Shown: in pieces, positions 2,555 through 30,981 of the stretch
Layout of the letters: each line of letters starts with the position of its first letter
Position numbering within the stretch: the stretch's first letter is position 1
Source: Arthrobacter agilis
Lineage (GTDB): Bacteria > Actinomycetota > Actinomycetes > Actinomycetales > Micrococcaceae
Length of the DNA stretch: 64,000 nucleotides
Assembly (NCBI RefSeq): GCF_006494655.1
Contig: NZ_VHIM01000005.1
Coordinates: 124,001-188,000, forward strand
Direction: 5' to 3'
Translations under genes and position numbers: made by a program
The notes under the pieces: model-generated
The model's database searches: none
Told to the model about the DNA's origin: nothing
The model's input: only the letters and a program-made list of their open reading frames with translations

Positions 2555-3361
2555 ATGCTGGTCAGCGTTGGACAGTTCAGGCCGGGCGGGGACGCCCCGG
2601 CGAATCTCGCGGTCATGCGGGAGCTCGTGGCCGAGGCTGCGGCCGGAGGCTCGGAGCTGATCGTCTTCCCCGAGGAATCGATGTTCTCGATCGGCAAGGT
2701 CGAGGGCCCGCTGCAGCGGGCAGTGGAGGAGAACTGGACCTCCTTCGTCCAGCAGGTGTCCTTCATGGCGGCCGAACACTCGATCGCCGTCGTCGCCGGC
2801 GGGTACGAGTCCAGCGGTGAGGAACGGCCCTTCAACACGCTCGTGCTCATCGACGCGACCGGGCGGATCGTGGACACCTACCGGAAACTGCACCTGTACG
2901 ACGCCTTCAGCTACCAGGAATCCACCCGCATCAAGCCGGGCGACGGCGGGATCAAGATCGCCGATCTCGGCGGTATCCGCGTGGGCCTCATGACGTGCTA
3001 CGACATCCGGTTCCCCGAGCAGGCACGCGCGCTCGCCGATGCCGGTGCCGATCTCATCTGCGTCCCGGCCGCCTGGTTCAAGGGTGACCACAAGATCGAC
3101 CACTGGGAGACGCTGCTGCGGGCACGCGCCATCGAGAACACGCTCTGGGTCGCCGCGGCCGGCACGTCCAGCGCACACACCATCGGCCACTCCGCCATCA
3201 TCGACCCGATGGGCATCCCGCAGGCGCACCTCGAGGAGGAGGAGCGCGGCGTCGTCACCACCGAGGTGACGCGCCGCAGGGTGGAGGACGTCCGCGAGTT
3301 CCTTCCGGTGCTGAGGAACCGACGGTTCGCCCGGAACGACTCCATTGTCGACTCCCACTGA
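2555..3361 (+). CDS. Carbon-nitrogen hydrolase (nitrilase superfamily)
   Basis: A 268-residue cytoplasmic amidase-fold enzyme. The Glu-Lys-Cys triad is visible as E40 (IVFPEE), K111 (YRKLHLYD) and C148 (MTCYDIRFPE). The whole length is a single nitrilase domain, closest in appearance to the deaminated-glutathione or omega-amidase branch; the true substrate cannot be read from sequence. Start at ATG 2555 after GTGAGG. Its 3' end overlaps the annotated start of the LacI-type regulator by 17 bases, so the two are probably co-transcribed. Confidence 0.88.
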   Translation: MLVSVGQFRPGGDAPANLAVMRELVAEAAAGGSELIVFPEESMFSIGKVEGPLQRAVEENWTSFVQQVSFMAAEHSIAVVAGGYESSGEERPFNTLVLIDATGRIVDTYRKLHLYDAFSYQESTRIKPGDGGIKIADLGGIRVGLMTCYDIRFPEQARALADAGADLICVPAAWFKGDHKIDHWETLLRARAIENTLWVAAAGTSSAHTIGHSAIIDPMGIPQAHLEEEERGVVTTEVTRRRVEDVREFLPVLRNRRFARNDSIVDSH

Positions 3362-4625
3362 CGCGGAGGGCCTCTCGGGGACAGTGCCTGTAGGCGGCGC
3401 GCCGGCAGGCGCTCCGGCAGGCGCACCTGTGGGTGGCGTCTCCGGGGGGCGCGTACGCTCAAGTGCCCGGCGTCCCGCTGAGACCGCACGCGCGGCGAAC
3501 ATCCGGGACGTGGCACGCCGCGCCGGCGTGTCCCACCAGACGGTGTCCCGTGTCATCAACGGCCCCCCGAGCCTCCGTGCCGCGACACGGGACCGCGTGC
3601 TCGCCGCGATGGACGAGCTCAGCTTCCGCCCCAACCGGGCCGCCCGCGCCCTTGTCACGAGCCGGTCGACGACCATCGGCGTCCTCGTCAGCAAGGGTTT
3701 CGAGTACGGCCCGGCGGCGAGCCTGCAAGCCATCGACAGCGCCGCCCGCGAGGCCGGGTACGGCGTGGACGTCGCCCACCTCGACGACGTCGACACCTCC
3801 TCCATCCGCTCGGCGCTCGACCGCCTGCTGGCCCACGGCGTGGACGGGATCATCATCCTCGCGCCCCAGACGCGGACGCTCGGGGAGATCGAGCACCTGT
3901 CCATCACCCTCCCGTTCGTGACGGTGCATTCCGCGAGGGCCGACGACGACCACCGGCTGTCGGTGGACCAGTCGGGAGGCGCGGCGCTCGCCACCCGGCA
4001 TCTCTTGCGCCTCGGGCATCGGAGGATCGTGCATGTCGCGGGGCCGGACGGGTGGTTCGAGACGGCTGCGCGTATCCGCGGGTACCGCGGGGAGATGGAG
4101 TCCTGGGGCCTCGAGCCCGAGCCGCTGCTCTCGGGCAACTGGACCGCGGCCTCCGGCTACGAGGCCGGGCACCTGATCCTCCGCGATCCGGGCATCACCG
4201 CCGTCTTCTCCTCCAATGACCAGATGGCGCTGGGTCTGCTGCACGCGTTCCGCGAGCAGGGGCTCCGGGTGCCCGAGGACCTGAGCGTCGTCGGGTTCGA
4301 CGACGTCCCCGAGTCCCCCCACTACTGGCCACCGCTGACGACGGTGCGGCAGAACTTCCCCGAACTCGGCCGCCGGTGTGTGGCCCGGCTGCTCGCGCTG
4401 ATCGGGGAATCCGGCCCCGCCGTTGACCGGGACGCCGGGGAAGCCGCCGGAGCCGCTCGCATCCCGGGATCAGGAACTGCAGGCGTGGCGGATGCAGCGG
4501 GCCCGGCAGCCGACGTCGCTCCGGAGCTGGTTCCACGGGAATCCACCGCGCCGCCGCGGCGGGTGCACAGCCGGCCCGACGCAGCATCCGGCGCCGCGCC
4601 GGCGGAAACGCCCCCGCTCCGCTGA
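3345..4625 (+). CDS. LacI-family repressor, probable arabinose regulator
   Basis: A DNA-binding repressor with a LacI helix-turn-helix (NIRDVARRAGVSHQTVSRVING) at about residues 51-72 and a periplasmic-binding-protein-like ligand domain (IGVLVS...VVGFDDVPESPHY). It lies just upstream of araB and a palindromic operator, so it probably represses the ara operon and responds to L-arabinose or a derivative; this is inferred from position. Two oddities: a Gly/Ala/Pro-rich N-terminal extension, and an extra low-complexity stretch of roughly 50 residues just before the usual C-terminal RESTAPPR. The TTG start at 3345 is uncertain; GTG 3384 or 3429 would trim the extension. Confidence 0.82.
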   Translation: MSTPTDAEGLSGTVPVGGAPAGAPAGAPVGGVSGGRVRSSARRPAETARAANIRDVARRAGVSHQTVSRVINGPPSLRAATRDRVLAAMDELSFRPNRAARALVTSRSTTIGVLVSKGFEYGPAASLQAIDSAAREAGYGVDVAHLDDVDTSSIRSALDRLLAHGVDGIIILAPQTRTLGEIEHLSITLPFVTVHSARADDDHRLSVDQSGGAALATRHLLRLGHRRIVHVAGPDGWFETAARIRGYRGEMESWGLEPEPLLSGNWTAASGYEAGHLILRDPGITAVFSSNDQMALGLLHAFREQGLRVPEDLSVVGFDDVPESPHYWPPLTTVRQNFPELGRRCVARLLALIGESGPAVDRDAGEAAGAARIPGSGTAGVADAAGPAADVAPELVPRESTAPPRRVHSRPDAASGAAPAETPPLR

Positions 4626-4688: not shown

Positions 4689-4750
4689 TTGACACGCACC
4701 ACGGCCGCACACCTACACTGGGGACCGCGGATGTGAACGGTCACATCCGC
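4689..4750 (+). promoter_or_regulatory. ara operon promoter and LacI-type operator
   Basis: A -35 match TTGACA (4689-4694) and a possible -10 TACACT (4714-4719, long 19-base spacer) precede a perfect palindrome with 10-bp arms, GCGGATGTGA (4727-4736) and TCACATCCGC (4741-4750), around a 4-base centre ACGG. The core TGTGA-N4-TCACA is typical of LacI/GalR-family operators. It sits just downstream of the -10, where bound repressor would block transcription. The araB start lies 70 bases further on. Confidence 0.7.
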
Positions 4751-4820: not shown

Positions 4821-6548
4821 TTGAGTGACTCCATCACGGGCGTAACCACGACCGGGGCGGCCGGCAGCGGATCCACCTACGTCATCGGTGTCGACTACGG
4901 CACCCTGTCCGGCCGCGCCGTCGTCGTCCGCGTCTCCGACGGCGCCGAACTCGGCGCCGCGACGCTCGAATACCCCCATGCCGTCATGGACACCACCCTC
5001 GCTGCCACCGGCGAGCAGCTGCCGCCCGAATGGGCCCTGCAGGTGCCCTCCGACTACGTCGACGTCCTCCGCACAGCCGTCCCCGCAGCCGTCAGGGAGG
5101 CGGGCATCGACCCGCAGGACGTCATCGGCATCGCGACCGACTTCACCGCCTGCACCATGGTCCCCACGCTCGCCGACGGGACGCCGCTCAACGAGGTGGC
5201 TGGCTACGAAGGCCGCCCCCATGCGTACGTGAAGCTGTGGAAGCATCACGCCGCCCAGGGGCAGGCCAACCGCATCAACGAGCTCGCCGCCGAGCGCGGC
5301 GAGGCGTGGCTGCCGCGCTACGGCGGACTGATCTCGAGCGAGTGGGAGTTCGCCAAGGGCCTCCAGCTGCTCGAGGAGGACCGCGAGCTGTACGACCTCA
5401 TGGAGCACTGGGTCGAGGCCGCCGACTGGATCGTCTGGCAGCTCACGGGGGAGTACGTGCGCAACGCGTGCACCGCGGGATACAAGGGCATCTACCAGGA
5501 CGGCGCCTACCCGTCGGACGAGTTCCTCGCCGCGCTCAATCCCGACTTCGCCGGGTTCGCCCGCGAGAAGGTGGAGCACACCATCGGCGCGCTCGCCTCG
5601 AAGGCGGGCACCCTGTCCGAGGCGGCCGCCGGCTGGACCGGCCTGCCCGCGGGGATCGCCGTCGCCGTCGGGAACGTGGACGCCCACGTCACCGCCCCTG
5701 CGGCACAGGCCACCGATCCCGGCCAGATGGTGGCCATCATGGGAACGTCCACCTGCCACGTCATGAACTCCGACCGCCTGAGCGAGGTGCCGGGCATGTG
5801 CGGTGTCGTCGACGGCGGGATCGTCGAAGGATTCTACGGCTATGAGGCCGGCCAGTCCGGTGTGGGCGACATCTTCGCCTGGTTCGTCGCGAACCAGGTG
5901 CCGGGCGAGATTCGGGACGCGGCCACGGCCCAGGGACTCAGCGTGCACGAGTACCTCACCGAGCAGGCGCAGACCGAGCCCGTCGGTGCCCACGGGCTGG
6001 TGGCGCTCGACTGGCACTCCGGCAACCGTTCCGTCCTGGTGGACCACGAGCTGTCCGGCACCATCGTGGGCCTGACGCTCGCCACGAAGCCGCACGAGGT
6101 CTACCGTGCGCTGCTGGAATCGACGGCGTTCGGCACCCGGAAGATCGTCGAGACCTTCAACGCGTCCGGTGTCCCGGTGACGGAGTTCGTCGCCGCCGGC
6201 GGCCTCATCCGGAACCCTTTCCTCATGCAGGTCTACGCGGACGTGCTGAACATGCCCATCTCCGTGATCGGCAGTGCCCAGGGCCCCGCGCTCGGCTCCG
6301 CCATCCACGCCGCCGTCGCTGCCGGTGCCTACGCGGACATCCACGCGGCAGCCGCCGCCATGGGACACCTGAACCGCGCCGCCTACACGCCGGACGCGGA
6401 GCGGGCCGAGGCGTACGACGCCCTCTACCGCGAGTACACCGAACTGCACGACTACTTCGGACGAGGAGCCAACGACGTCATGCACCGGCTCAAGGCGCTG
6501 CGCCGCTCCGCCCGCACGGCTTCCACAGCGCAGGAGGTGTCGGCATGA
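4821..6548 (+). CDS. araB: L-ribulokinase
   Basis: Phosphorylates L-ribulose to L-ribulose 5-phosphate with ATP, the second step of arabinose breakdown. The 575-residue protein has the FGGY-kinase layout: N-terminal [13 protein letters not shown] phosphate loop, the AraB-type [15 protein letters not shown] segment, and the C-terminal [19 protein letters not shown] signature, all at normal family length. The start is TTG 4821 after AGAGG. The stop overlaps the araD ATG (ATGA), showing translational coupling. Expression is expected to be controlled by the operator at 4727-4750. Confidence 0.95.
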
Positions 6549-7273
6549 GCGCCGCAACCCCCACGACCTTCAGCCCCGAGGTGGAGGCCGCGATCCAGGC
6601 CGTGCGGCAGGACGTCGCGGCCCTCCACGCCGAACTCGTGCGCTACGGACTCGTCGTCTGGACGGGCGGCAACGTGTCCGGCCGCGTTCCGGGCGCCGAC
6701 CTGTTCGTCATCAAGCCCTCCGGCGTCAGTTACGACGAGCTGACGCCGGAGAACCAGATCCTCTGCGACCTCGACGGCAACGTCATCGAGGGCACACCCG
6801 GGTCCGAGCGCTCGCCCTCGAGCGACACCGCCGCCCACGCCTACGTCTACCGGCACATGCCCGACGTCGGCGGCGTGGTCCACACGCACTCCACCTACGC
6901 CGTCGCCTGGGCAGCCCGCGGCGAGGCGATCCCCTGCGTCATCACGGCCATGGCCGACGAGTTCGGCGGGGAGATCCCCGTGGGCCCCTTCGCGATCATC
7001 GGGGACGATTCGATCGGCCGCGGCATCGTGGACACCCTGACCGGGCACCGCTCACGCGGCGTGCTCATGAAGAGCCACGGCCCCTTCACCATCGGCAAGG
7101 ACGCGAAGGACGCCGTCAAGGCGGCCGTCATGCTCGAGGACGTCGCACGCACCGTCCACATCTCACGCCAGCTCGGCGCACCCGCAGGCATCCAGGCCGA
7201 GCACATCGACTCACTCTTCGACCGCTACCAGAACGTGTACGGTCAGCCATCTACACCAGGAGCACCGGCATGA
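6545..7273 (+). CDS. araD: L-ribulose-5-phosphate 4-epimerase
   Basis: Converts L-ribulose 5-phosphate to D-xylulose 5-phosphate, which enters the pentose phosphate pathway. The 242-residue class II aldolase/epimerase fold shows TGGNVSGR, the [13 protein letters not shown] segment and the VVHTHSTYA zinc-binding motif; the third zinc histidine is probably in KSHGPF. It starts on the ATG overlapping the araB stop, and its own TGA overlaps the araA ATG, so araB, araD and araA are translationally coupled. Confidence 0.95.
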
Positions 7274-8784
7274 GCCCCCTCAGCACCACCCTCGACACCT
7301 ACGAAGTCTGGTTCCTGACCGGGAGCCAGGACCTCTACGGCGAGGAGACGCTGCAGCAGGTCGCAGAGCAGTCCCAGGAGATCGTCCGGATGCTCGAGGA
7401 CTCGGGACTGCCCGTGAAGATCGTCTGGAAGCCCACCCTGAAGGACTCCGCCTCGATCCGCCGCATGGCGCTCGAGGTCAACGCGGCCGACCACGCGATC
7501 GGCGTCATCGCCTGGATGCACACCTTCAGCCCCGCCAAGATGTGGATCGCGGGGCTCGACGCGCTCCGCAAGCCCCTGCTGCACCTGCACACCCAGATCA
7601 ACGTCGCGCTGCCGTGGGCCGAGATCGACTTCGACTTCATGAACCTCAACCAGGCCGCCCACGGCGACCGGGAGTTCGGGTACATCCAGTCGCGACTCGG
7701 CGTGCCGCGGAAGACCGTCGTCGGCCACGTCTCCAACCCGGACGTCTGCGCGAAGGTGGCCACCTGGCAGCGTGCCGCCGCCGGTTGGGCCGCCGTGCAC
7801 GAGCTGAAGGTCGCCCGCTTCGGCGACAACATGCGCAACGTCGCCGTCACCGAGGGCGACAAGACCGAGGCCGAGCTCCGCTTCGGCGTCTCCATCAACA
7901 CGTGGGGCGTCAACGACCTCGTCGCGGCCGTCGAGGCCCAGTCGGAGGACGCCGTCGACGCCCTCGTGGCCGAGTACGAGTAGACGTACGACGTCGTCCC
8001 CGAGCTCCGCCGCGGTGGCGACCGCCACGAGTCGCTGCGCTACGGGGCCCGCCAGGAACTGGGACTCCTGTCCTTCCTCGAGGAAGGCGGGTTCGGTGCC
8101 TTCACCACGAACTTCGAGGACCTCGGCGCGCTGCGGCAACTGCCCGGCCTCGCCGTCCAGCGGCTCATGGCCCGCGGCTACGGCTTCGGCGCCGAGGGCG
8201 ACTGGAAGACCGCCGTGCTGGTCCGTGCCGCGAAGGTGATGGGCGCCGGGCTGCCCGGCGGTGCCTCGCTCATGGAGGACTACACCTACCACCTGGTGCC
8301 GGGGGAGGAGAAGATCCTCGGGGCGCACATGCTCGAGATCTGCCCCACCCTGACCACGTCGAAGCCCACCCTCGAGGTGCATCCGCTCGGCATCGGCGGC
8401 AAGGAAGATCCCGTGAGGCTCGTGTTCGACACGGACGCCGGAGCCGGCGTCGTCGTCGCGATGTCCGACATGCGGGACCGCTTCCGCCTCACGGCCAACG
8501 CCGTCGAGATCGTCCCGCCGGACGCGCCGCTCCCCAACCTGCCGGTCGCGCGCGCAGTGTGGAAGCCGGAGCCGAGCCTCGAGACGTCGGCAGCGGCCTG
8601 GCTGAGCGCCGGCGCCGCGCACCACACCGTCCTCACCACCGCCGTGGGCCTCGAGGTCTTCGAGGACTTCGCGGACATCGCCGAGGTCGAACTGCTGCGG
8701 ATCGACGCCGACACGAAGCTCCGTGACTTCCAGCGTGAACTGCGCTGGAACGCGGCCTACTATCGCCTGGCGCAGAAACTGTAA
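7270..8784 (+). pseudogene. araA: L-arabinose isomerase, interrupted by in-frame amber codon
   Basis: Arabinose isomerase converts L-arabinose to L-ribulose. The full frame spans 505 codons, the normal length, but codon 238 (7981-7983) is TAG. Reading continues in the same frame without another stop to 8784, so this is a point nonsense change, not a frameshift. The 237-residue product stops before all four residues corresponding to the E. coli metal ligands E306, E333, H350 and H450, which lie here in GAEGDWK (E309), MEDYTYH, GAHMLE and GAAHHT. A restart at ATG 8167 would give only 205 residues. In E. coli the matching position is a Ser in a variable loop. It could be a recent pseudogene or a base-call error. 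Confidence 0.9.
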
Positions 8785-8842
8785 GAGCCACTCCCCGAAA
8801 GCCGGCAACGCTGCCGGAAACCACTCACAAGAAAGTTCCACC

Positions 8843-9961
8843 ATGAATCGGAAATACCTGGCCGGCATCGCGGCCGCCAGCATCCTGACCCTCAGCCTCT
8901 CCGCCTGTGGCGGTAGCAGCCGCGGCGGCGGCGACGCCGCTGCGGAGGGTGGCTCCAACGAGGGCGCCAAGATCGGTGTGGCCATGCCCACGCAGCAGTC
9001 CGAGCGCTGGATCGCCGACGGCGAGAACGTCAAGAGCCAGCTCGAGGACCTCGGCTACGAGGTGGACCTGCAGTTCGCCAACGACGACATCCCCACCCAG
9101 GTCAGCCAGATCGAGAACATGATCAACGGCGGCGTGAAGGCCCTCGTCGTCGCCTCCATCGACGGCACCACCCTGACGAGCGTCCTGGACCAGGCCGAGT
9201 CGCAGGACATCCCGGTCATCGCCTACGACCGGCTGATCAACGGCTCCGACACCGTTGACTACTACACCACCTTCGACAACGAGGAGGTCGGCGTCCAGCA
9301 GGCCACGTCGCTCCTGACGGGCCTCGGCGTCCTCGACGCCGAGGGCGCCGAGACAGGCGAGGAAGGGCCGTTCGACGTGGAACTCTTCGCCGGCAGCCCG
9401 GATGACAACAACGCGAAGTTCTTCTGGGACGGCGCGATGAAGACCCTCCAGCCGTACCTCGACAGCGGCGTGCTCCGCGTGCCGAGCGGCCAGACCGAAT
9501 TCGAGCAGGCCGCGATCCTCCGCTGGCTGCCCGACACCGCACAGGACCGCATGGAGGACCTCCTGACCGTCGGCGGCGGGGAGCAGCTCGAAGGCGTGCT
9601 CTCGCCCTATGACGGTCTCTCGATCGGCATCATCTCGGCCCTCACCTCCGGTGGCTACTCCGCGAGCGACCTCCCGGTCGTCACCGGTCAGGACGCAGAG
9701 GTCGGCTCCGTGAAGTCGATCATCGCCGGTGAGCAGTACTCGACGATCTTCAAGGACGTCCGCGAACTCGGCAAGCAGGCCGTCACCATGGTGGATGCCC
9801 TCATGACGGGCGAAGAGCCCGAGGTCAACGACACCGAGACCTACGACAACGGCGAGAAGATCGTTCCCGCGTACCTGCTCGAGTCGCAGATCGTCACGGT
9901 CGACAACTACGAGGAAGCCCTCGTCGAGACCGGTTACTACACCGAGGACGAGCTCAAGTAA
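8843..9961 (+). CDS. chvE: ChvE-type sugar-binding lipoprotein of ABC importer
   Basis: Extracytoplasmic sugar receptor of 372 residues, membrane-anchored through lipobox LSAC (Cys22) after a short signal peptide. The body is a periplasmic-binding-protein type I fold ([17 protein letters not shown]..., [31 protein letters not shown]), closest to the multiple-sugar receptor ChvE/XylF group. Its place after the ara genes and before the matching ATPase and permease suggests L-arabinose or related pentoses as ligand. Start ATG 8843; a longer upstream frame overlapping araA is not the real start because the signal peptide begins here. Confidence 0.9.
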
Positions 9962-9982
9962 CCGTCCAGCACCACCTCTGAT

Positions 9983-10022
9983 GCCTGTGGCTCCGGACCT
10001 TCCCTGGTCCGGAGCCACAGGC
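9983..10022 (+). terminator. Intercistronic stem-loop between receptor and ATPase genes
   Basis: A perfect 17-bp stem (9983-9999 with 10006-10022) closes a 6-base loop. No T-tract follows, so it probably acts as a partial terminator or a 3' RNA-stabilising structure. Either would give more receptor mRNA than ATPase/permease mRNA, a common arrangement in ABC importer operons. Confidence 0.6.
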
Positions 10023-10078
10023 GCTGTACCTCGCCCGGCATCGCCCGGGACTTCCACTCAAGTAAGCGAGGCTCGACC

Positions 10079-11608
10079 ATGGCGGAAAACATCCTCAGGA
10101 TGCACCGCATCACCAAGACCTTCCCTGGCGTGAAGGCACTGCAGGACGTCAACCTCGACGTCGCGCGCGGCGAGGTCCACGCGATCTGCGGGGAGAACGG
10201 GGCCGGTAAATCGACCCTCATGAAAGTGCTGTCGGGTGTCTACCCGCACGGCACGTACGACGGCGACATCGAGTTCGAGGGTCGCGTCGTAGAGTTCAAG
10301 GACATCCGCGACAGCGAACGCGACGGGGTGGTCATCATCCACCAGGAGCTGGCGCTGTCTCCCTTCCTCTCCGTCGCCGAGAACATCTTCCTCGGCAACG
10401 AGCGCGAGAAGCGCGGTTTCGTGAACTGGAACGAGACCAACCTGGAGGCGGCCAAACTGCTCCGCCGCGTCGGACTGGACCTCAGTCCCACGGTGCGTGC
10501 CGGCGACATCGGCGTGGGCAAGCAGCAGCTCGTCGAGATCGCGAAGGCGCTCTCGAAGAACGTGAAGCTGCTGATCCTCGACGAACCCACGGCCGCCCTG
10601 AACGACGAGGACTCCGCGCACCTCCTCGGGCTCGTCAAGGGCCTCCGCTCCGAAGGCATCACCAGCATCATCATCAGCCACAAACTCAACGAGATCCGCG
10701 AGATCGCCGACTCGGTCACCATCCTCCGCGACGGCCGCACCATCGAGACCCTGAGCCTGCACGACGGCTCGGTCACCGAGGAACGCATCATCAAGGGCAT
10801 GGTGGGGCGCGACATGGAGAGCCGCTACCCCGACCGCACGCCGGTGATCAGGGAGGAAGTCCTCCGCGTCGAGGACTGGACCGTGCACCACCCGCAGGAG
10901 AGTTCCCGCGTGATCGTCGACAAGGCGAATCTCTCCGTCCGCGCAGGGGAGGTGGTGGGCATCGCCGGTCTCATGGGCGCCGGCCGCACCGAACTGGCCA
11001 TGAGCATCTTCGGCCGGAGCTACGGCTCCAACATCACCGGCACGCTGTACAAGAACGGGACGCCCATCACGGCGCGGACGGTCGGTGAGGCGATCCGCCA
11101 CGGGATCGCCTACGCCACGGAGGACCGCAAGCGCTACGGCCTCAACCTGATCGACGACATCAAGCGCAACATCTCGGGCGCCGCTCTCGGCAAGCTCGCG
11201 AAACGCGGCTGGGTGGACAGCGGCCGGGAAGCCGTCGTCGCCGGCGACTACCGGACCTCCATGAACATCAAGGCACCGTCCGTCACCGCCGTCACCGGGA
11301 AACTCTCCGGCGGCAACCAGCAGAAGGTGGTGCTCTCGAAGTGGATGTTCTCGGACCCCGACGTCCTGATCCTCGATGAGCCCACCCGCGGGATCGACGT
11401 CGGAGCGAAGTACGAGATCTACACGATCATCAACCGGCTTGCAGCCGAGGGGAAGGCAGTCATCGTCATCTCCTCCGAGCTCCCCGAGCTCCTCGGCATC
11501 TGCGACCGCATCTACACCCTGGCCGAGGGCCGCATCACCGCGGAGGTGCCCATCGCACAGGCCACCCCGGAACTCCTCATGCAATTCATGACCAAGGAAA
11601 AGGACTGA
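10079..11608 (+). CDS. gguA: Sugar ABC transporter, double ATPase subunit
   Basis: Powers the sugar importer from the cytoplasmic face. The 509 residues hold two fused ABC domains, as in the MglA/XylG/GguA group. The first has Walker [10 protein letters not shown] (about residue 40), the signature [13 protein letters not shown] and Walker [12 protein letters not shown]. The second has a degenerate Walker A ([12 protein letters not shown]), signature [14 protein letters not shown] and Walker [13 protein letters not shown]. Start ATG 10079. The permease follows after 4 bases. Confidence 0.93.
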
Positions 11609-11612
11609 CTCC

Positions 11613-12848
11613 ATGGCTACCACCGTCAAGGACCCCGCCGTTGCGATGCCGCAACCTCCCGTGAAGCACGGGATCTCCTTCCTGACGAGCAGGCTGCGGC
11701 AGATCGGTATCTTCGTCGCGCTCCTCGTGATCGTCACGCTGTTCCAGGTGTTGACCGGCGGCGCGCTGCTGCAGCCGGACAACGTCTCGAACATCATCGT
11801 GCAGAACAGCTACATCCTGCTCCTGGCGATCGGCATGGTCATGATCATCGTCGCCGGACACATCGACCTGTCCGTCGGATCGGTGGCGGCCTTCGTCGGC
11901 GCCATGTCCGGCATCATGGTGCAGGACTGGTCCTTCCCCTGGTGGCTGGCCTTCATCGTGTCCCTCGTCATCGGCGGCCTCGTGGGGGCCTGGCAGGGAT
12001 TTTGGGTAGCCTATGTGGGCATCCCGGCGTTCATCGTGACCCTCGCGGGCATGCTCGTCTTCCGCGGGCTCACCCAGATCGTCCTCGAGAACCAGCGCAT
12101 CACCGGGTTCCCCGAGGAGTACCGCCAGCTCGGCGGAGGGTTCCTGTTCCCGGGTCTCTTTCCCGCCGAGACGAACATCCTCGACTGGACCACCGTGGGC
12201 CTCGGCGTCATCGCCGTCGTCCTGCTCGTCGTGTCCCAGCTGCGCGGCCGCGCCACGCGTGCCCGCCTCAACCTGGAGGACGAGCCGGCAGCCTGGTTCT
12301 TCACCAAGCTGGCTTTCATCGCCGTCATCATCCTGGGCCTCACCTATCTGCTGGCCGGTTCCCGCAGCGGGACGCCGATCGTGCTGGTGGTGCTCGGGGT
12401 CCTGATCGTCGCCTACAGCCTCGTCATGAGCAACAGCGTCTTCGGCCGGCACATCTACGCACGCGGTGGCAACCTGCAGGCAGCCCAGCTGTCGGGGGTC
12501 AACACGAAGCGCATCGACTTCATGCTCTTCGTCAACATGGGTGTGCTCGCAGCGCTCGCCGGCCTCATCTTCACCGGCCGGCTCAACTCCGCCGGGCCGG
12601 GTGCGGGCAACCTCTTCGAGCTCGACGCCATCGCCGCAGCATTCATCGGTGGGGCCGCCGTCACGGGCGGCGTCGGAACGGTGATCGGGGCCATCACGGG
12701 CGGGCTCATCATGGGCGTGCTCAACAACGGCATGTCCCTGCTCGGCGTCGGTATCGACTACCAGCAGTTCATCAAGGGCATGGTGCTCCTGCTGGCTGTC
12801 GGCTTCGACGTCTTCAACAAGCGCCGTGCCTCCAGCGCGCTGAAGTAG
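11613..12848 (+). CDS. gguB: Sugar ABC transporter permease
   Basis: Membrane channel of the importer, 411 residues with about ten hydrophobic segments. The family motif for ribose/xylose-type permeases is clear (HIDLSVGSVAAFVGA, then FIGGAAVTGGVGTVIGAITGGL near the C-terminus). Charged linkers (RGRATRARLNLEDEP, around 210-225) form an inner loop. It is the last gene of the arabinose operon. Two hairpins follow, the second with a T-rich tail. Confidence 0.93.
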   Translation: MATTVKDPAVAMPQPPVKHGISFLTSRLRQIGIFVALLVIVTLFQVLTGGALLQPDNVSNIIVQNSYILLLAIGMVMIIVAGHIDLSVGSVAAFVGAMSGIMVQDWSFPWWLAFIVSLVIGGLVGAWQGFWVAYVGIPAFIVTLAGMLVFRGLTQIVLENQRITGFPEEYRQLGGGFLFPGLFPAETNILDWTTVGLGVIAVVLLVVSQLRGRATRARLNLEDEPAAWFFTKLAFIAVIILGLTYLLAGSRSGTPIVLVVLGVLIVAYSLVMSNSVFGRHIYARGGNLQAAQLSGVNTKRIDFMLFVNMGVLAALAGLIFTGRLNSAGPGAGNLFELDAIAAAFIGGAAVTGGVGTVIGAITGGLIMGVLNNGMSLLGVGIDYQQFIKGMVLLLAVGFDVFNKRRASSALK

Positions 12849-13627: not shown

Positions 13628-15084
13628 CTGCACGTGACACCCCGGCGCCGGAGCCCGTGCAGAGTCTCCTGGACGAGGCGGGCCTTTCCCACGACCAACG
13701 GCTCGACGACGTGCTGCAGAGCATCCGGGACCTCGGCACAGGACCCGAACCTGAGTGCTCCGCGGAGCTCGCCCAGCTGATGTCCGACGGCGGCCGGCCC
13801 GGCCAGAGCCGCCGGCACAAGCGGCGGATCACGTTCATCGGAGGCGCGCTCGCCGTCTCCATGGGCGTCGGGATGTCCGGGGTCGCGGCGGGAACCCTGC
13901 ATCTTCCGGGGCATACCGGGGAATCGTTCGATGCCACGGCGCGCTTCAGCGTCCGTGACAGTGCGGATCGTCTCGAGGCCGGGGGGCACGTCCGGACCGG
14001 GCCAGATCCCCTGACCGACGCCGGAACGACGCCGGTACCGACAGCTGAGCGGCCGTCCGGCGCGGGCAGCCCCGTCCCCGGTGATTCCGGCGGGTCATCG
14101 ACGACTGCCGTGCATGCCGTGCCTGTCGCGCCGCTCCCGCCGCTCCCACAGGGACCCGGCCAGGCCCGGACGGCGTCCGACGCCGGGTCCGTGCCCGCCG
14201 CGCCGCTCCCGCAGGGAACCGGCGAGGCCCGGACTGCGCCCGACGCCGGGTCGCTGCCTGCCGTGCCGCTCCCGCCCACGACCGGCGAGGTCGGCAGCCC
14301 GGCGCGATCATCGGCGCCCGGTCCCGCCGATGCCCGTTCGGGCGTATCATCCGTGGCTCCGACGCGGGCAGGCGAGGACGCTGCCTCCGATGTGGCTGCA
14401 GCGGCCGAGACCGCAGCACACCGCTCGGTGACCGTTCCGGCTGTGAGCGGCCCGGCGGAGGGCCCGACAACGACCACGCGGCTGGCGAGCTCTCCCGTCC
14501 CCGGTCAGCGGAGGGAGACCGGGGACGCGCGGCCGGTTGCTCCGTCCGGGGACGCCCGGGTGGACGGTGCCCTGCTCCGCGACCGCTTCAGCGCGACATC
14601 CCCGACGACAGGTGGGAGCCCCGTGATGTCGACCCTGTGGCTCCGTGCAGCGGCGCCGCAGCCGGAGGACACCTCGACCCTCTCCTACCCGGTCCTGACG
14701 GATTCCGACCTCGGGGGCCTGTTCCCTGTGGAAGCGGGGGTGTACGGTCCTGACCCGGCTGACGTCCCCGGGGGCTCCATCGAGCCGGCCGACCCACAGG
14801 ACGCGAAACCCGCTCCCAGCCCGGTGCCCACCGGCGGCGACCCGGCACCCGGGGTCGGCCCGTCGGCGGTTCCGGAGGTCGATCAGGGCGCTCCGCCCGA
14901 GCAGGTCGCCGCTGCCGGCGCGGGAACGGGTGCGGAGGTCGCTGCGGACGCGGAAGCGGTCGCGGACGTGACGGTCGGTGGCGATGGAGGAACCGGTGCC
15001 ACTCCCCCCGAGGAGACTCTCCAGGAGATCCCGGACGAGGCTCCGAAGACGCTGCAGGGCGGGCCCAGCCCTTCGGACGGCTGA
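13624..15084 (+). CDS. Membrane-anchored sigma-factor partner, probable anti-sigma
   Basis: 486 residues: a cytoplasmic head of about 70 residues, a basic patch (SRRHKRR) followed by one membrane segment (TFIGGALAVSMGVGMSGVAA, roughly 75-94), then nearly 400 residues of Pro/Ala/Gly/Thr-rich sequence expected outside the cell. No zinc-binding HxxxCxxC anti-sigma motif is visible. An approximately 21-residue repeat (PLPQ-GTGEARTAPDAGS and variants) occurs near residues 175-220. Coupling to the sigma gene suggests an anti-sigma factor; that is inference. No recognised sensor domain was seen. Confidence 0.6.
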   Translation: MTARDTPAPEPVQSLLDEAGLSHDQRLDDVLQSIRDLGTGPEPECSAELAQLMSDGGRPGQSRRHKRRITFIGGALAVSMGVGMSGVAAGTLHLPGHTGESFDATARFSVRDSADRLEAGGHVRTGPDPLTDAGTTPVPTAERPSGAGSPVPGDSGGSSTTAVHAVPVAPLPPLPQGPGQARTASDAGSVPAAPLPQGTGEARTAPDAGSLPAVPLPPTTGEVGSPARSSAPGPADARSGVSSVAPTRAGEDAASDVAAAAETAAHRSVTVPAVSGPAEGPTTTTRLASSPVPGQRRETGDARPVAPSGDARVDGALLRDRFSATSPTTGGSPVMSTLWLRAAAPQPEDTSTLSYPVLTDSDLGGLFPVEAGVYGPDPADVPGGSIEPADPQDAKPAPSPVPTGGDPAPGVGPSAVPEVDQGAPPEQVAAAGAGTGAEVAADAEAVADVTVGGDGGTGATPPEETLQEIPDEAPKTLQGGPSPSDG

Positions 15085-15102
15085 CGACGCGGCCGGTCCC
15101 GC

Positions 15103-15606
15103 CTAGGAGGTGATCTGCCGCTTCGAGGAGATGACCCCCGTGTTGAACCCCGCCAGGTTGAGCCCGCCGTGGAAGCGTGCATGCTCGATCTTGAGGCAGC
15201 GGTCCATCACCACATCGAGGCCCGCGGCCTCCGCCGAGCGTGCCACGTCCTCGTGCCAGGAGCCGAGCTGCAGCCACAGCGCCTTCGCCCCGACCTCGAG
15301 CGTCTCCTCCAGCACGGACGGCAGGTCGTCGTGCTTCCGGAACACGTCGACGACGTCGGGCACCTCCGGGAGGTCCTTCAGCGACGCGTAGGCCGGCTGC
15401 CCGAGGATCTCTTTCGCCACCGGATTGACGAAGTACAGGCGGTAGGGCGAGGACGACTGCAGGTAGGTCGCCACGAAGTAGGAGGCCCGGGACGGCTTGT
15501 CGGACGCCCCGACGATCGCCACGGACCGTGCGTTCCGGAGGAGAGCCAGTCGCTCCGGGGCAGACGGTCCCTCCCAGGTCCGCGTCGGTGCTTCCGATCC
15601 GCTCAT
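15103..15606 (-). CDS. CoA_binding (Rossmann) domain protein
   Basis: 167 residues forming one CoA_binding/YccU-like Rossmann domain: SVAIVGASDKPSRASYF nucleotide loop at about 29-45, YFVNPVAKEILGQPAY, ALWLQLGSWHEDVA and VVMDRCLKIEH. The cytoplasmic role is not established. It is the third gene of a SAM-riboswitch operon, its ATG overlapping the metY stop (ATGA), which points to a job in sulfur or methionine metabolism. A paralogue lies at 24780. Confidence 0.85.
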   Translation of the reverse strand: MSGSEAPTRTWEGPSAPERLALLRNARSVAIVGASDKPSRASYFVATYLQSSSPYRLYFVNPVAKEILGQPAYASLKDLPEVPDVVDVFRKHDDLPSVLEETLEVGAKALWLQLGSWHEDVARSAEAAGLDVVMDRCLKIEHARFHGGLNLAGFNTGVISSKRQITS

Positions 15607-24779: not shown

Positions 24780-25196
24780 ATGGCGCACCGGAACGACCCG
24801 CAGGTGATCAGGAGGCTCCTCACCGATCACGGGCGGTGGGCCGTCGTCGGGCTGTCGAACAATCCGCGTCGCGCGGCCGTCGGCGTGTCCCGGTTCCTCA
24901 TGGACACCCTGGGCATGGAGGTGGTCCCGGTGAGCCTGAAGGGCGACGACGTCCATGGGCAGAAGGGTTACACGCGCCTTGCGGACGTGCCGGGCGCGAT
25001 CGACGTCGTCGACTGTTTCGTGAACTCCTCGCGCGTAGGTGCCGTGGTGGACCAGGCGATCGCCGTGGGGGCCCGCGCGGTATGGCTGCAGCTCGGCGTC
25101 ATCGACGAGGATGCAGCCCGGCGGGCCGCGGAGGCAGGGCTCGACGTCGTCATGGACACCTGTCCCGTCATGGAGGCGCCGGCCCTCGGGCTCTAG
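24780..25196 (+). CDS. CoA_binding (YccU-like) domain protein
   Basis: 138 residues, a single Rossmann domain: WAVVGLSNNPRRAAVGVSRF, VVPVSLKGDDVHGQKGY, DVVDCFVNSSRVGAVVDQAI, AVWLQLGVIDEDAARRAAEAGLDVVMDTCPVME. It is a shorter paralogue of the product at 15103-15606, with the same WLQLG and VVMD-C signatures. Start ATG 24780 behind GGGAGG. It diverges from the SAM-riboswitch importer operon, so both sulfur loci carry such a gene. Function unproven. Confidence 0.85.
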   Translation: MAHRNDPQVIRRLLTDHGRWAVVGLSNNPRRAAVGVSRFLMDTLGMEVVPVSLKGDDVHGQKGYTRLADVPGAIDVVDCFVNSSRVGAVVDQAIAVGARAVWLQLGVIDEDAARRAAEAGLDVVMDTCPVMEAPALGL

Positions 25197-25203
25197 CGGA
25201 GCC

Positions 25204-26061
25204 TCACATGCGCTGGTACTTCGAACGCACCACCATGAACAGGCCATAGGCCATCAGGCCGATGGCCACCGCGCCGAGCAGCCACGCGCCGAAGGGCTGC
25301 TCGCGGAGGGTCTTCAGTGCGCCGTCGAGCCCGGTGGACTCCTCCGGGTTGTTGGTCACGGTCGCGACGACGAGCAGGACCCCGAGGACCCCGAGTGCAA
25401 AGCCCTTGGCGATGTAGCCCACGGTGCCGAGGGCCACGACGGCGGTGCCGAGACCGGCGGGCGGAATGGCGGAGAGCTTTTTCGTGAAGGACCGCGAGGC
25501 GCCCCGGTAGATGAAGTAGCCGCCGACCGCGAGGATGCCCACGCCGACCGCGATCAGCAGTGCCGAGCCCGCCGGGTTGGACATGAGGGAGGCGCTGGCA
25601 GAGCTCGTCTCGCTGCTGCTGTCGCTCGAGCCGCCGAGCGCGTACCGCCCGAATGTGGTGCCGATGGTGGCGTAGACCGCTGCCTGCCCGCCGCTCTTGA
25701 GCCGCGACGTCAGTTTCTCCTTCCCGCTCAGGGCCCTGACGCCGAAGAAGATCTCACTGACCTGGAACAGCGCGAGGGCGAGGCAGCCGATGAAGCAGAA
25801 CCAGAGGAGGACCGCACCCCCGGGACTGCCGGCGAGCTGACCGATGGCGCCGCTCTGATCGGCGCTGCCGGAGCCACCCCGCGCGAGACCGAGTGCGATG
25901 AACCCGATCAGGAGATGCAGAATGCCGGCGGCGATGTAGCCCGCGCGGGCCGCGAGCTCGAATCCCTTCGAGTTGGCGGCCTCCTCCGCGGCGTCGGACG
26001 CCCTGTCAGTTGCGTCGTCCACCCCGTTGCTGCCTTTGCTGGTTGACGGGTTCGGTTTCAT
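25204..26061 (-). CDS. DUF1206 membrane protein
   Basis: 285 residues with six hydrophobic segments in three pairs, each pair beginning with a similar AARAGYIAAGILHLLIGF, GGQAAVYATIGTTFGRYA or VALGTVGYIAKGFALGVLG sequence: the three-fold repeat of DUF1206. An acidic N-terminal stretch of about 35 residues precedes the first segment. Cytoplasmic membrane protein with no assigned function. Convergent with the CoA_binding gene, only 7 bases apart. Confidence 0.85.
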   Translation of the reverse strand: MKPNPSTSKGSNGVDDATDRASDAAEEAANSKGFELAARAGYIAAGILHLLIGFIALGLARGGSGSADQSGAIGQLAGSPGGAVLLWFCFIGCLALALFQVSEIFFGVRALSGKEKLTSRLKSGGQAAVYATIGTTFGRYALGGSSDSSSETSSASASLMSNPAGSALLIAVGVGILAVGGYFIYRGASRSFTKKLSAIPPAGLGTAVVALGTVGYIAKGFALGVLGVLLVVATVTNNPEESTGLDGALKTLREQPFGAWLLGAVAIGLMAYGLFMVVRSKYQRM

Positions 26062-26273
26062 GATGCTCCCACTTCGCTGGTGGAGCGGCGGGAAGGGGCA
26101 TCAGCGGTGCGCCCGGGCCGGTCCGGATCCCTATCCTGCCACTGCGCGTCCCGCGGACACCCACCCGGAGAGCGGGGGTCCGGATCCCTCTGGCACTCGG
26201 ACATCCATTAGGTTCACATGTGCGTAATCATGCACTTAGGCTGGTGATCCACTTTCCGTCCGAGAGGGCCATG

Positions 26274-27515
26274 ATGCTTTCCGTTCTTTGCCGCCCGGCG
26301 TACCGCCATCTCTTCACGGCGCAGGTCGTCGCCCTCCTCGGAACGGGCCTGCTGACCGTCGCGTTGGGCCTGCTGGCGTTCGATCTCGCCGGAGGGCAGG
26401 CCGGCGCCGTCCTCGGCACGGCGTTGACCATCAAGATGGTCGCCTATGTCTTCGTGGCTCCCGTGATGGCGGCACTGGTCGAACGGCTGCCACGCAGGGG
26501 CGTCCTCGTCGGTGCGGATCTGGTACGCGCGGCCATCGCGCTGAGCCTGCCGTTCATCGATCAGGTATGGCAGATCTACGTTCTCGTCTTCATCCTGCAG
26601 TCGGCGTCCGCGACCTTCACCCCCGCCTTCCAGGCCCTGATCCCCGTCGTGCTCCCGGAGGAGAAGGACTACACCAGGGCGCTCTCGCTCTCCCGGCTCG
26701 CCTACGACCTCGAGTCGCTCGTGAGCCCGCTGCTGGCCGCCGCGCTCCTGCTCGTCATGAGCTTCCACACCCTCTTCGTCGGCACCATGATCGGGTTCCT
26801 CGTCTCCGCGGCGATGGTGCTGTCGACCAGGCTCCCGAGCATTCCGCCCGCCCAGCAGCAGGGGTCGCTCCTCCACCGGACAACTCTCGGGACCCGGATC
26901 TTCCTGCGTGAACCGACGCTGCGCGGGCTCATGGCACTGAATCTGGTGGTGGCGACCGCGACCGCGCTCGTCCTGGTGAATACCGTCGTCTACGCACGCG
27001 ACCTGTTCGGCAGGTCGAACACCGATGTCGCGATCGCACTGGCCTTTTACGGAGCGGGTTCCATGCTCGTCGCGCTCCTTGCACCGCGGGCACTGGAGCG
27101 AGCAACGGACCGGCTCTTCATGCTCCTCGGCGGGGCGGTCCTCTCCGTCGGCCTGCTCGCCGCCGCCCTCCTCGCCGCGGGTGACCACGGTGCTGCCGGT
27201 TCCTCCACCACCTCCTGGGCCATGTTCCTCGGCCTGTGGGTCGTCCTCGGGGTGGGGACCTCGATGATCAGCACCCCGTCCGCACGCCTGCTCCGGCGCA
27301 TCGCCACCGATGACACCCGCAGCTACCTCTTCACGGCCCAGTTCTCCCTCTCGCACGCCTGCTTCCTCATCGCCTACCCGATTGCCGGCTGGGTCGGCGC
27401 CGGGGTGGGCCAGAGCGCAGCAGCACTCGTCCTCGGAGCCCTGGCCCTCCTCGGCACGATCACGGCTCTCCTCGTGTGGCCGCCCGTGCGCCAGGAGGTG
27501 GGGGCCAGGACCTGA
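26274..27515 (+). CDS. MFS transporter, probable exporter
   Basis: About 413 residues with roughly ten to twelve membrane segments in the EntS-like major facilitator group (PAYRHLFTAQVVALLGTGLLTVALGLLAFDL; the LVERLPRRGVLVGADLVRA loop replaces the usual GRLADRxGRR motif; LIPVVLPEEKDYTRALSLSRLAYDLESLVSP). ATG 26274 is 5 bases after AGAGGG; ATG 26271 is adjacent. An ArsR-type metal-responsive regulator follows at 27667, which suggests export of a metal or metal-complexing compound; inference only. Confidence 0.85.
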   Translation: MLSVLCRPAYRHLFTAQVVALLGTGLLTVALGLLAFDLAGGQAGAVLGTALTIKMVAYVFVAPVMAALVERLPRRGVLVGADLVRAAIALSLPFIDQVWQIYVLVFILQSASATFTPAFQALIPVVLPEEKDYTRALSLSRLAYDLESLVSPLLAAALLLVMSFHTLFVGTMIGFLVSAAMVLSTRLPSIPPAQQQGSLLHRTTLGTRIFLREPTLRGLMALNLVVATATALVLVNTVVYARDLFGRSNTDVAIALAFYGAGSMLVALLAPRALERATDRLFMLLGGAVLSVGLLAAALLAAGDHGAAGSSTTSWAMFLGLWVVLGVGTSMISTPSARLLRRIATDDTRSYLFTAQFSLSHACFLIAYPIAGWVGAGVGQSAAALVLGALALLGTITALLVWPPVRQEVGART

Positions 27516-27528
27516 GGCGGGATGCTCA

Positions 27529-27597
27529 GCGCGGGCGCGCTGCACCGGGCGCGCTGCAGCGGGCGCACAACGCGGGCGCCCTGCACCGGGCGGGCGG
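27529..27597. repeat. Degenerate GC-rich direct repeats
   Basis: Short imperfect repeats of the type GCGGGCGCGCTGCACCGG occur four times between the MFS and ArsR genes. Possibly regulatory or simply slippage; nothing else is recognised in the 151-base gap. Confidence 0.5.
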
Positions 27598-27666
27598 GGG
27601 ACGGGAGCAGGCGGTAGCGTAGGGCCAGCGGCAGAACGGCAGAACGACAGAACCGGAAGGGACAGC

Positions 27667-28038
27667 GTGTCCGAGAGCGATCCGGCGACCCCTGTGGGCA
27701 GCGCTCCGAGTCTCGTGCACCGGGTCGAGCCGGATGCGCGACGCCTCGACGCAGGAGCAGCGACCTTTCGGATGCTCGCGGATCCCACGCGCCTCCACAT
27801 CCTCTGGCTCCTCACCCAGGGCCCCGCCGACGTCGGCACACTGGTCGCAGCGACGGGCGCGAACCGCACGGCCGTCAGTCAGCACCTGGCCAAACTCCGG
27901 CTCTCCGGCCTCGTCGCGACGCGCAAGGACGCCCGCAAGGTGATCTATCGCATCATCGACGGGCACCTGGCCCGGCTGATCCTCGAGGGTATGAACCACG
28001 CAGACCATCGCGTCACCGGGGAGCCTGTCCACGAGTAA
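27667..28038 (+). CDS. ArsR/SmtB-family regulator
   Basis: A 123-residue winged-helix repressor: FRMLADPTRLHILWLLTQGPADVGTLVAATGANRTAVSQHLAKLRLSGLVATRKDARKVIY (wing), split here by the usual family spacing. The C-terminus has His-rich sequence (MNHADHR...VHE) and the N-terminus an HRVEPD segment, which could supply metal ligands as in Ni/Co sensors of the NmtR/KmtR type. The GTG start at 27667 follows GGAAGGGA. It probably regulates the MFS gene just upstream. Confidence 0.87.
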   Translation: MSESDPATPVGSAPSLVHRVEPDARRLDAGAATFRMLADPTRLHILWLLTQGPADVGTLVAATGANRTAVSQHLAKLRLSGLVATRKDARKVIYRIIDGHLARLILEGMNHADHRVTGEPVHE

Positions 28039-28140
28039 CGTCGACGGGCTCCTGTGCGGAGCTCTCCACGGCTCGGGGCCGTGTCCGGTCCGCTAGGTTG
28101 AGATGCAGCGTGCCGCCCTCCGGCGCGCCCTCTCGACGGG

Positions 28141-28728
28141 ATGGAAGCCATGGATCGGTTCACCTACGACGAACGCGGTGCAACCGACCGGCCGTTCCCT
28201 GAATCGCTCGACGGCGGCTGGCCGAACGGATACACCGTCATGGTCGAGACCCACGCCATCGAGGCAGCCGACCCCTCCGCGGCCTTCATCGCGCTCACGG
28301 AGGGAATCCTGGCCTGGAACCTGCACCGCGGGGCCGGGCTCACCATGGAGTCGGATGCCGGACGGGCAGAGCCGGGCGTCCGCGTCGTCTCAGGCTTCGG
28401 GCTGGGTCGGGTGCGCATCAAGGCGCCGTGCCGCGTCCTCTGGTCGCGGTCCCCCCAGCTCGACGGCGCGGGAAGGGCCGAGCCGGGCCAGCGGGCCGGG
28501 TTCGGGTACGGGACGCTCCCAGGACACCCCGTTCGGGGGGAAGAGGGCTTCTACGCCGAACTGACGGCCGACAATCGCGTGGTGTTCATCTGCACCGCAT
28601 ACAGCATGCCGGCGAGCCTGCTGTATCGGCTGGCCTCGCCGGTCACGCGCCTGACGCAGCGGTACGTGCTGTCCCGCTATGTCCTCTCGGCGCGCGCTCT
28701 GGCCGCGGCCGGCCCCGGCCCTCGCTGA
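28141..28728 (+). CDS. DUF1990 (UPF0548) protein
   Basis: 195 residues recognisable as DUF1990 by the NRVVFICTAYSMPASLLYRL C-terminal region, AGFGYGTLPGHPVRGEEGF in the middle and RVRIKAPCRVLW. Plant and bacterial members lack a proven function. Start ATG 28141, with ATG 28150 also possible. No sign of coupling to its neighbours. Confidence 0.8.
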   Translation: MEAMDRFTYDERGATDRPFPESLDGGWPNGYTVMVETHAIEAADPSAAFIALTEGILAWNLHRGAGLTMESDAGRAEPGVRVVSGFGLGRVRIKAPCRVLWSRSPQLDGAGRAEPGQRAGFGYGTLPGHPVRGEEGFYAELTADNRVVFICTAYSMPASLLYRLASPVTRLTQRYVLSRYVLSARALAAAGPGPR

Positions 28729-29054
28729 CAGTGCGCACTCGCTCGGCCGACCTGCTGGAAAAGGTCGCCATGTCGAGGACATCCGCGCGCCGAGGCCTCA
28801 CCGATGCTGAATCGTTATACCTGTTTCCTCCTCGGGCCCGTTGTCGTCCCGAGCGCTGGCGCTTAGGTTGAGGTAACAGTGATCGTTCAGGGTACGTCCA
28901 GTTGCTTAGGAGGTTCGCCTGGTTCTTACGATCGGCGGATCATGATGTTCTGTTCGCGGCGGCCTCCCGGAGGCCGCCGCTTGCGTGTGGGGCCGCAAGC
29001 TGGGGCCGTCGGGGGTCGCCCGGGGGATACTACGTGTTTCAGGAGAAGCAGATC
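28729..29054 (+). promoter_or_regulatory. Long leader with two hairpins before the surface-protein gene
   Basis: A 326-base gap. An 11-bp perfect hairpin (28956-28966 with 28970-28980, 3-base loop) is directly followed by a second hairpin (GCTTGCG at 28979 with CGCAAGC ending about 29000), sharing two bases, so the two may be alternatives. Neither has a T-tract. The remainder holds no recognised riboswitch and no convincing promoter. AGGAGAAG precedes the downstream start. Confidence 0.45.
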
Positions 29055-29969
29055 ATGATTGTTGCAAGAAAATGGGTTGCTGCCGGATCGACAGCCACCC
29101 TCCTCGCCGGCGGGTTGTTCCTCGGCGCTCCGATGGCCTCAGCCGCACCCGGCGACGCAGCCTGCCTGCAGGCATCGACCCAGTTCAACGCCGCGCTCGG
29201 CGCGGCGGGCGTCGACGTCGCCTTCGTGAACAACTTCGAGGCCGCTACGGCAGCCGTCGTCACGGCAGCAGAGACCTACGCTGCCGCGGTCGCGGCAGCT
29301 GAATCATCGGATGCAGCCGTCACGGCGCAGGCTGCTGTCGTGAAGGCCGAGGCTGACTACGAGGCCGCTACCGCGCTCGTCGCGACGGCACAAGCGAACT
29401 ACGACGCCGTCTTCGAGGCGTCAGCCGACCCCTCCATCGATCCCGGAGTCGTCGCTGCCCAGAATGACCTGACGCTTGCCCTCGCGGCACAGGCCACCGC
29501 CTCGAACATCGGTCTCGCGGCCACCGCCGCGCTCGAGGCCGCACTGAACACCCCCGCCGTGATGGAGGCTGAGGCGGCCCTCGAGACGGCCGGCGCCAAC
29601 GCGGACGCTCTCCTCGCGCAGCTCAGCGGGAACGAGGCCCTGGCGGCCGAGCTCCTCGGGCTGTTCAAGGCGTTCCTCGCGGCGTGTGATGCCAGTGCTA
29701 TCGGTGTGGATCCCGTGACGCCCGTCGTCGTCGTGCCTGTCGCTCCTGCCCCCGCGGCTCCCGTTGCGCCTGTGACTCCCGGGGCCGGAACAGGCAACGG
29801 CGTCGTCGCACCGACCGGCACCAACAAGGGCCTGAACGTCCAGACCGCTGTCGTGAGCGAGGACAACAGCCCGGCTGTCGCCCTACTCGCAGCGTTGCTG
29901 GCCGTCGGTGTCGCTGTGCCGGTAGCCACCGCGGCCCGGATGCGCCGCCTGGAGCGCGCACAGCGCTAG
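29055..29969 (+). CDS. Secreted surface protein with C-terminal sorting-like signal
   Basis: 304 residues. A signal peptide ends at ASAA (about residue 32). An Ala-rich helical, probably coiled-coil region runs to about 215 (many AAETYAAAVAAAE, AQANYDAVFEA heptads) with only two Cys (about 38 and 212), which may form a disulfide. A Pro/Val linker follows, then GLNVQTAV (about 262-269), a hydrophobic segment (AVALLAALLAVGVAVPVATAA) and a basic tail RMRRLERAQR. That tripartite end is a sorting signal, though NVQTA replaces LPXTG or LAXTG. A sortase gene lies 98 bases downstream and is the likely partner. Confidence 0.7.
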   Translation: MIVARKWVAAGSTATLLAGGLFLGAPMASAAPGDAACLQASTQFNAALGAAGVDVAFVNNFEAATAAVVTAAETYAAAVAAAESSDAAVTAQAAVVKAEADYEAATALVATAQANYDAVFEASADPSIDPGVVAAQNDLTLALAAQATASNIGLAATAALEAALNTPAVMEAEAALETAGANADALLAQLSGNEALAAELLGLFKAFLAACDASAIGVDPVTPVVVVPVAPAPAAPVAPVTPGAGTGNGVVAPTGTNKGLNVQTAVVSEDNSPAVALLAALLAVGVAVPVATAARMRRLERAQR

Positions 29970-29979
29970 TACACTGGCC

Positions 29980-30028
29980 GTCCCGGCGCGGTTCGACAGT
30001 CCATGCGGCCGTTGGACCGCGCCGGGAC
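29980..30028 (+). terminator. Stem-loop between surface-protein and sortase genes
   Basis: A 13-bp perfect stem (29980-29992 with 30016-30028) closes a 23-base loop. No T-tract follows, so it may be a partial terminator letting less sortase than substrate be made. Confidence 0.5.
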
Positions 30029-30067
30029 AACGCAGCACTCTCCTCCTACCTCAGGACACACCAGCAG

Positions 30068-30784
30068 ATGCACCAGCACCGGAGCGCGGACGAGACCCTC
30101 GACCAGGAGCCTCTCGGACCTGTCGTCCGGCCTCGCCGCAGGACAGCCGGGAAGCGCCGACTGGCGTTGCCGCTCGCCGCCGTCGCCGGACTCCTGGTCG
30201 CCTGCTCCGTCCTGCCGCCCGAGTCGGCGGACGCACCTCCGTCACCCTCGTCGTCCCTGTCCGCGGTCGCGACGACCGCACCCGCCCCGTCGCCGTCGGC
30301 CGCCGCCCCGACCCCCGAGCCGACTCCGCCGGCCGGTCCGGCAGCGTCGCAGCCCACCGGGCTCGTGTTCCCGGCCGCGGGCATCGACATGGCGGTCCTG
30401 CCACTGACTCCGAGCGACGCCGACCTCGCAGCGCAGACCCTCGTGCCGCCGCTCACGACCGATGCCTACTGGCTCACGTCCTACGGCGTTCCCGGAGCAG
30501 GGTCGGTCAACACCACGTACATCGCGGGCCACAGTTGGGACGGGAAGGACGCACCGTTCAACAGGCTGAGCGACGAGACCCTCGTGGGCGACGAGTTCAC
30601 CCTGGACACCGGGACGGGCAGCATGACGTATGTGGTCGATTCCGTGATCACGCATGACAAGGACACCCTGAAGGACAGCGATATCTGGAACATCGTGCCC
30701 AATCGCGTGGTCCTCATCAGTTGCTACACCGAGGACCCCTGGGGGAAGAACGTGGTTCTCACGGCCATGCCGAAGACCGCCTGA
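30068..30784 (+). CDS. Class E/F-like sortase with lipobox
   Basis: A transpeptidase expected to attach surface proteins. The 238 residues start with a basic head, a membrane/signal segment and a lipobox-like LVAC (about Cys46), then a Ser/Pro/Ala linker to about 98. The sortase domain follows: TTYIAGHSW (catalytic His), LISCYTEDPWGKN (catalytic Cys; the usual Arg appears to be in NIVPNRVVLISC). The compact domain and TLKD-type loops fit actinobacterial class F or E. It is paired with the surface protein just upstream. Confidence 0.8.
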   Translation: MHQHRSADETLDQEPLGPVVRPRRRTAGKRRLALPLAAVAGLLVACSVLPPESADAPPSPSSSLSAVATTAPAPSPSAAAPTPEPTPPAGPAASQPTGLVFPAAGIDMAVLPLTPSDADLAAQTLVPPLTTDAYWLTSYGVPGAGSVNTTYIAGHSWDGKDAPFNRLSDETLVGDEFTLDTGTGSMTYVVDSVITHDKDTLKDSDIWNIVPNRVVLISCYTEDPWGKNVVLTAMPKTA

Positions 30785-30804
30785 CAGCTGCCGTCCTCGT
30801 ACCG

Positions 30805-30838
30805 GAGGCTCGTGCCAGGTGATGCGGGCCTCTTTTTG
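30805..30838 (+). terminator. Weak terminator after the sortase gene
   Basis: A GAGGC/GCCTC pairing (30805-30809 with 30828-30832) followed by TTTTT. The stem is short, so support is modest. Confidence 0.4.
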
Positions 30839-30866
30839 TGCAGCGAGACGTCCTCGACCGACGGTC

Positions 30867-30936
30867 GCAAACCCGCGGCGGCGTGTCAGGTGCGGCGTGA
30901 CGCCCCCGCGGGTCTGGCGGCCCGGCTCGGCGTGCC
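30867..30936 (+). repeat. Dispersed ~70-bp intergenic repeat, copy A
   Basis: One of three related copies in the window (others near 62248-62315, reversed, and 63496-63564). They share CAAACCCG-GGC, GTGTCAG, a GGCG-TGA-CGCC mini-hairpin, CCCCCGCGG, TCTGGC and GCCCGGCTCGGCG in the same order and spacing. This copy lies between the convergent sortase and purL genes. Confidence 0.75.
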
Positions 30937-30981
30937 ACCCCCGGAGCGGCCGACGGGGGCGTTGCCCCGCCGGCCTGCGTC

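Follow-up and report, generated by a model that had tools for sequence, protein, structure and literature searches.

The window analysed here is a stretch of 64,000 nucleotides, corresponding to positions 124001–188000 of contig C44 in assembly G000, a genome of 3.24 Mb in 48 contigs that is 99.96% complete. It carries an arabinose operon on the forward strand, in which a LacI-type regulator is followed by araB, araD and araA and then by the binding protein, ATPase and permease genes of an ABC transporter. The regulator, a putative ara repressor with Pfam LacI and Peripla_BP_3 domains (3345–4625), is an open frame and has matches of 70–77% identity adjoining araB in 14 relatives. Also open are araB, encoding ribulokinase (4821–6548; FGGY_N and FGGY_C), and araD, encoding L-ribulose-5-phosphate 4-epimerase (6545–7273; Aldolase_II), and both the araB/araD and the araD/araA junctions are ATGA overlaps. 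The three transporter genes, for the sugar-binding protein (8843–9961; Peripla_BP_4), the ATPase (10079–11608; ABC_tran, matched in two stretches) and the permease (11613–12848; BPD_transp_2), are likewise open, the permease ending in a TAG terminator of its own.

Upstream of araB lies a palindrome, TGTGAACGGTCACA (4732–4745), whose conservation suggests that it is the operator of the LacI-type regulator. It is found 5′ of araB in all 14 sequences compared, one copy having a single base changed; these were the window and 13 relatives, G021 being left out since its araB match did not begin at residue 1. The initial annotation, which regarded the surroundings of araA as functional, is thus borne out by the open frames of the regulator, araB, araD and the transporter, by their expected Pfam domains and by this conserved palindrome. 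A possible araB promoter, picked out by eye at 4689–4719 of the forward strand, comprises TTGACA and TACACT, which we take to be promoter hexamers by analogy with the consensus. The latter is conserved in 10 of the 13 relatives aligned. A scan for consensus promoters that allowed spacers of 16–18 nt reported nothing; the spacer of the candidate seen by eye is 19 nt. A small forward-strand hairpin of six pairs between araA and the transporter genes (8802–8817; −10.7 kcal/mol when the gap is folded with ViennaRNA) could partly terminate transcription or tune it. Elsewhere the window holds another palindrome, TGTGAGGGTAATCACA, at 36358–36373; its spacing is N6, as in CRP/GlxR-type sites, and not the N4 of the ara operator.

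The araA frame (7270–8784, forward strand) comprises 504 codons plus a TAA terminator and is interrupted at codon 238 by an in-frame TAG (7981–7983). This agrees with the initial annotation, whose figure of 505 codons includes the terminator. Over its first 19,000 bases, codon 238 among them, the window is identical to the host assembly. The stop leaves an upstream part of 237 codons (7270–7983 with the TAG), bearing AraA_N and the first 58 positions of AraA_central, and a downstream part of 266 codons plus TAA (7984–8784), bearing the rest of AraA_central, from profile position 60 to 148, and Arabinose_Iso_C. The Pfam domains of L-arabinose isomerase are matched almost end to end, all three of them above cut-off and, save for the TAG, in one frame. 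The catalytic residues of the Escherichia coli enzyme, E306, E333, H350 and H450, align with residues 309, 336, 353 and 452 (codons at 8194, 8275, 8326 and 8623), and their equivalents are named as catalytic in the account of the Arthrobacter sp. 22c enzyme (PMC3520711). All four lie downstream of the stop, so that the product translated up to the TAG has none of them, as had been claimed for the metal ligands from the first reading of the sequence. Lacking these residues and the C-terminal domain, it should be inactive.

The ancestral state of the codon was judged by alignment with close relatives, as the initial annotation had itself proposed. It had also noted that E. coli has serine here, which is correct, but all 14 close relatives compared have GAG, encoding Glu, from which the TAG would derive by a single G-to-T change. 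GAG is present too in G059, a genome with an open araA that was added later and lies outside the 14 relatives used for codon, invariant-column and branch-change counts. Glu is the local ancestral residue at 238. More widely, the position is D in 35, E in 23, R in 12, A in eight, Q in one and N in one of 80 named loci, and E in 22, A in four and D in three of 29 further loci from the genus and order, a variety suggesting that the site tolerates replacement. A stop at codon 238 is seen in none of these 109 loci. The araA frame is open over at least 470 aligned residues in 108 of them (80/80 named loci and 28/29 genus and order loci); the apparent second break, in the relative G029, proved to be a scaffold gap of 100 N. 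The 109 loci count some genomes twice, G016 and G013 for example appearing also under public names, and leave out ten further weak or distant matches. The nearest of the 80 named loci kept is that of Arthrobacter sp. SX1312, with 92% identity over the first 237 residues of AraA, in a search from which the host's own records may be missing.

Secondary decay of the operon was not found. Of 435 araA columns invariant in the 14 relatives, the host departs at one only, the stop at codon 238 itself, and there are no departures at the 459 invariant columns of araB or the 190 of araD. There has been enough time for decay, since the two nearest relatives are only about 79–80% identical to the host at third positions over the operon. 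By parsimony, the host's own branch has 41 synonymous and two replacement changes after the stop, and 32 synonymous and five replacement changes before it in araA, whereas a simple model in which the transition and GC weights are assumed predicts about 3.2 replacements per synonymous change under neutrality. In its replacement rate, the part after the stop is not clearly distinct from the rest of the operon (2:41 against 62:357, p = 0.10). With a zero baseline, the share of the branch spent without selection is roughly estimated as at most about 5%; taking araA as the baseline lowers this to about 2%, and taking the rest of the operon brings it to nil. The 41:2 ratio thus implies either that selection lapsed only within the final few percent of the branch or that the base was misread. 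On these rough numbers the stop is either recent or not real.

No second araA was found in the host genome, where the N-terminal half, the C-terminal half and the PF02610 profile have one match each, nor were other members of the araA N-terminal family found there. Across the genus, the downstream half of araA is present in 29 of 38 genomes, the host included, and a close araD is present in the same 29; a 30th araD match, in G027, is weak (E 2e-6, 30% identity). Both genes are missing from G001, G005, G010, G011, G017, G027, G031, G057 and G058, two of which are less than 90% complete. Restricting the count to genomes with completeness of 90% or more and contamination of no more than 5% gives 27/34 for araA and 27/34 for araD. 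This joint absence from nine of 38 genomes indicates that the pathway is dispensable. The host also keeps one match to the alpha-L-arabinofuranosidase C-terminal domain.

Taken with the uniqueness of the stop and the absence of secondary decay, these results lead us to think it probable that a nonsense mutation has very recently made a null allele of the host's araA, a dispensable gene and the only copy found; the host is predicted to be an arabinose non-user. Among the options raised in the initial annotation, recent loss of arabinose use is accordingly the one that fits best, with the phenotype as a prediction. The main rival attributes the TAG to an error of sequencing or assembly and takes the strain's araA to be intact. 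The difference is of one base with no other sign of decay, and a base-call error would leave just the same absence of secondary decay as a recent mutation. The host assembly is moreover a draft of 48 contigs, and apparent breaks in the ara operons of relatives, with araB in three frames in G024 and the transporter ATPase in two in G012, may be errors. Against this, breaks like that of araA do not look frequent in the host assembly. In 145 gene comparisons between its contig C44 and contig C34 of genome G032, a stop away from the ends was found in 13, araA included. Of the other twelve frames, seven can be assigned to a Pfam family; each of these has its stop ahead of the domain, which points to a probable overcall of the start. 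The remaining five have no family. Only in araA does the stop lie inside a Pfam domain. Three split matches break at residues 35–63, with the domain downstream of the break in two and no family in the third, and the reverse comparison gave 10 stops and two splits in G032. Further candidate breaks (14 and 16 listed) were set aside as mostly window ends, start-site overcalls or wrong-looking frames; among the candidate breaks listed, araA is the one recognised gene cleanly broken by an internal stop. The TAG has, besides, landed in a pathway that is missing from nine of 38 genus genomes. The rarity of such breaks argues against an assembly that is often wrong while still allowing for one wrong base, and we regard this explanation as rather improbable.

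The other explanations keep the TAG and rescue the enzyme. Suppression, an option in the initial annotation, finds some encouragement in the intact and conserved downstream frame, and the variety of residues at 238 (E, D, R, A, Q or N in relatives, Ser in E. coli) means that many inserted residues might be accepted. It nevertheless appears unlikely: 46 tRNA genes pass the family cut-off, and ARAGORN reads none of their anticodons as CUA; TAG commonly serves as a terminator here, ending 24 of the 85 contig C44 genes (out of 118 compared) whose end coincides with that in G032, rather than being avoided as recoding would lead one to expect. The permease gene of the operon itself ends in TAG, as it does in 11/11 relatives checked (G009, G012 and G026 being left out), and the lack of any stop at codon 238 in the 109 related loci speaks against a conserved programmed read-through. 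That a suppressor tRNA or the codon context gives full-length AraA at a useful level is therefore very unlikely, and we hold it highly improbable that the TAG is usefully translated with no dedicated suppressor tRNA, in a strain still using arabinose with the first step of the pathway merely throttled by the stop. An active enzyme assembled from two separately translated pieces is scarcely credible. Both pieces are conserved, but the first in-frame start past the stop is the ATG at 8167 (codon 300), which lies well inside the central domain and has no ribosome site clear to the eye before it. Re-initiation there, which would skip residues 238–299, was rejected on these grounds.

If the preferred reading of a recent null allele is right, a G-to-T mutation would have changed Glu238 (GAG) to TAG in the only araA found, and the TAG would be present in the cell, as we infer, and not just in the record. 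Translation would halt after 237 residues, within the central domain. Sensing and import of L-arabinose could continue, but without its isomerisation to L-ribulose the strain should fail to grow on the sugar. The untranslated araA message may also, through polarity, reduce how strongly the transporter genes further downstream are expressed. Whether the TAG is a mutation or a base error, the case is an ordinary one, and the loss, if real, an ordinary kind of gene loss. A real stop would capture the loss of a sugar pathway cleanly at its first step, with one fresh stop and the rest in place; in this genus, close araD and araA are absent from about a quarter of the genomes examined (9/38). In genome-based metabolic models of the strain, L-arabinose use is best marked as doubtful.

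Oenococcus oeni belongs to a different phylum. In one study of that species, strains in which araA, araB or both are truncated are described as arabinose-negative (PMC5131533). The likeness to the present case is a broken araA within an otherwise present ara cluster (PMC5131533); the difference is that the phenotype was tested there (PMC5131533) and is only predicted here. In Propionibacterium freudenreichii a correlation is described between premature stops and lost use of ribose and of gluconate (PMC4437456), and this species, an actinobacterium, resembles the present case in having an araABD locus with a LacI-type regulator and an rbs-type transporter (PMC4437456). From the genus itself, the L-arabinose isomerase of Arthrobacter sp. 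22c was cloned, by the published account, with primers derived from araB, araD and araA of Arthrobacter operons (PMC3520711). Its four catalytic residues are equivalent to those of E. coli (PMC3520711), and it is active when expressed (PMC3520711), whereas the copy in the window stops before all four.

Several irregularities were observed in related loci. In L164 (G024), araB matches in three frames over 9118–10805, and in L166 (G012) the transporter ATPase matches in two frames over 13999–15526; these may be small indel errors or real losses, the two assemblies consisting of one and two contigs respectively. In L169 (G009), from 14095–15402 onward, the ATPase match stops at residue 436 of 509, with no permease match in the stretch examined. 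Finally, the stretch of G032 that matches 24780–34368 of the window is about ten kilobases longer, a block of genes having been either lost here or gained in G032.
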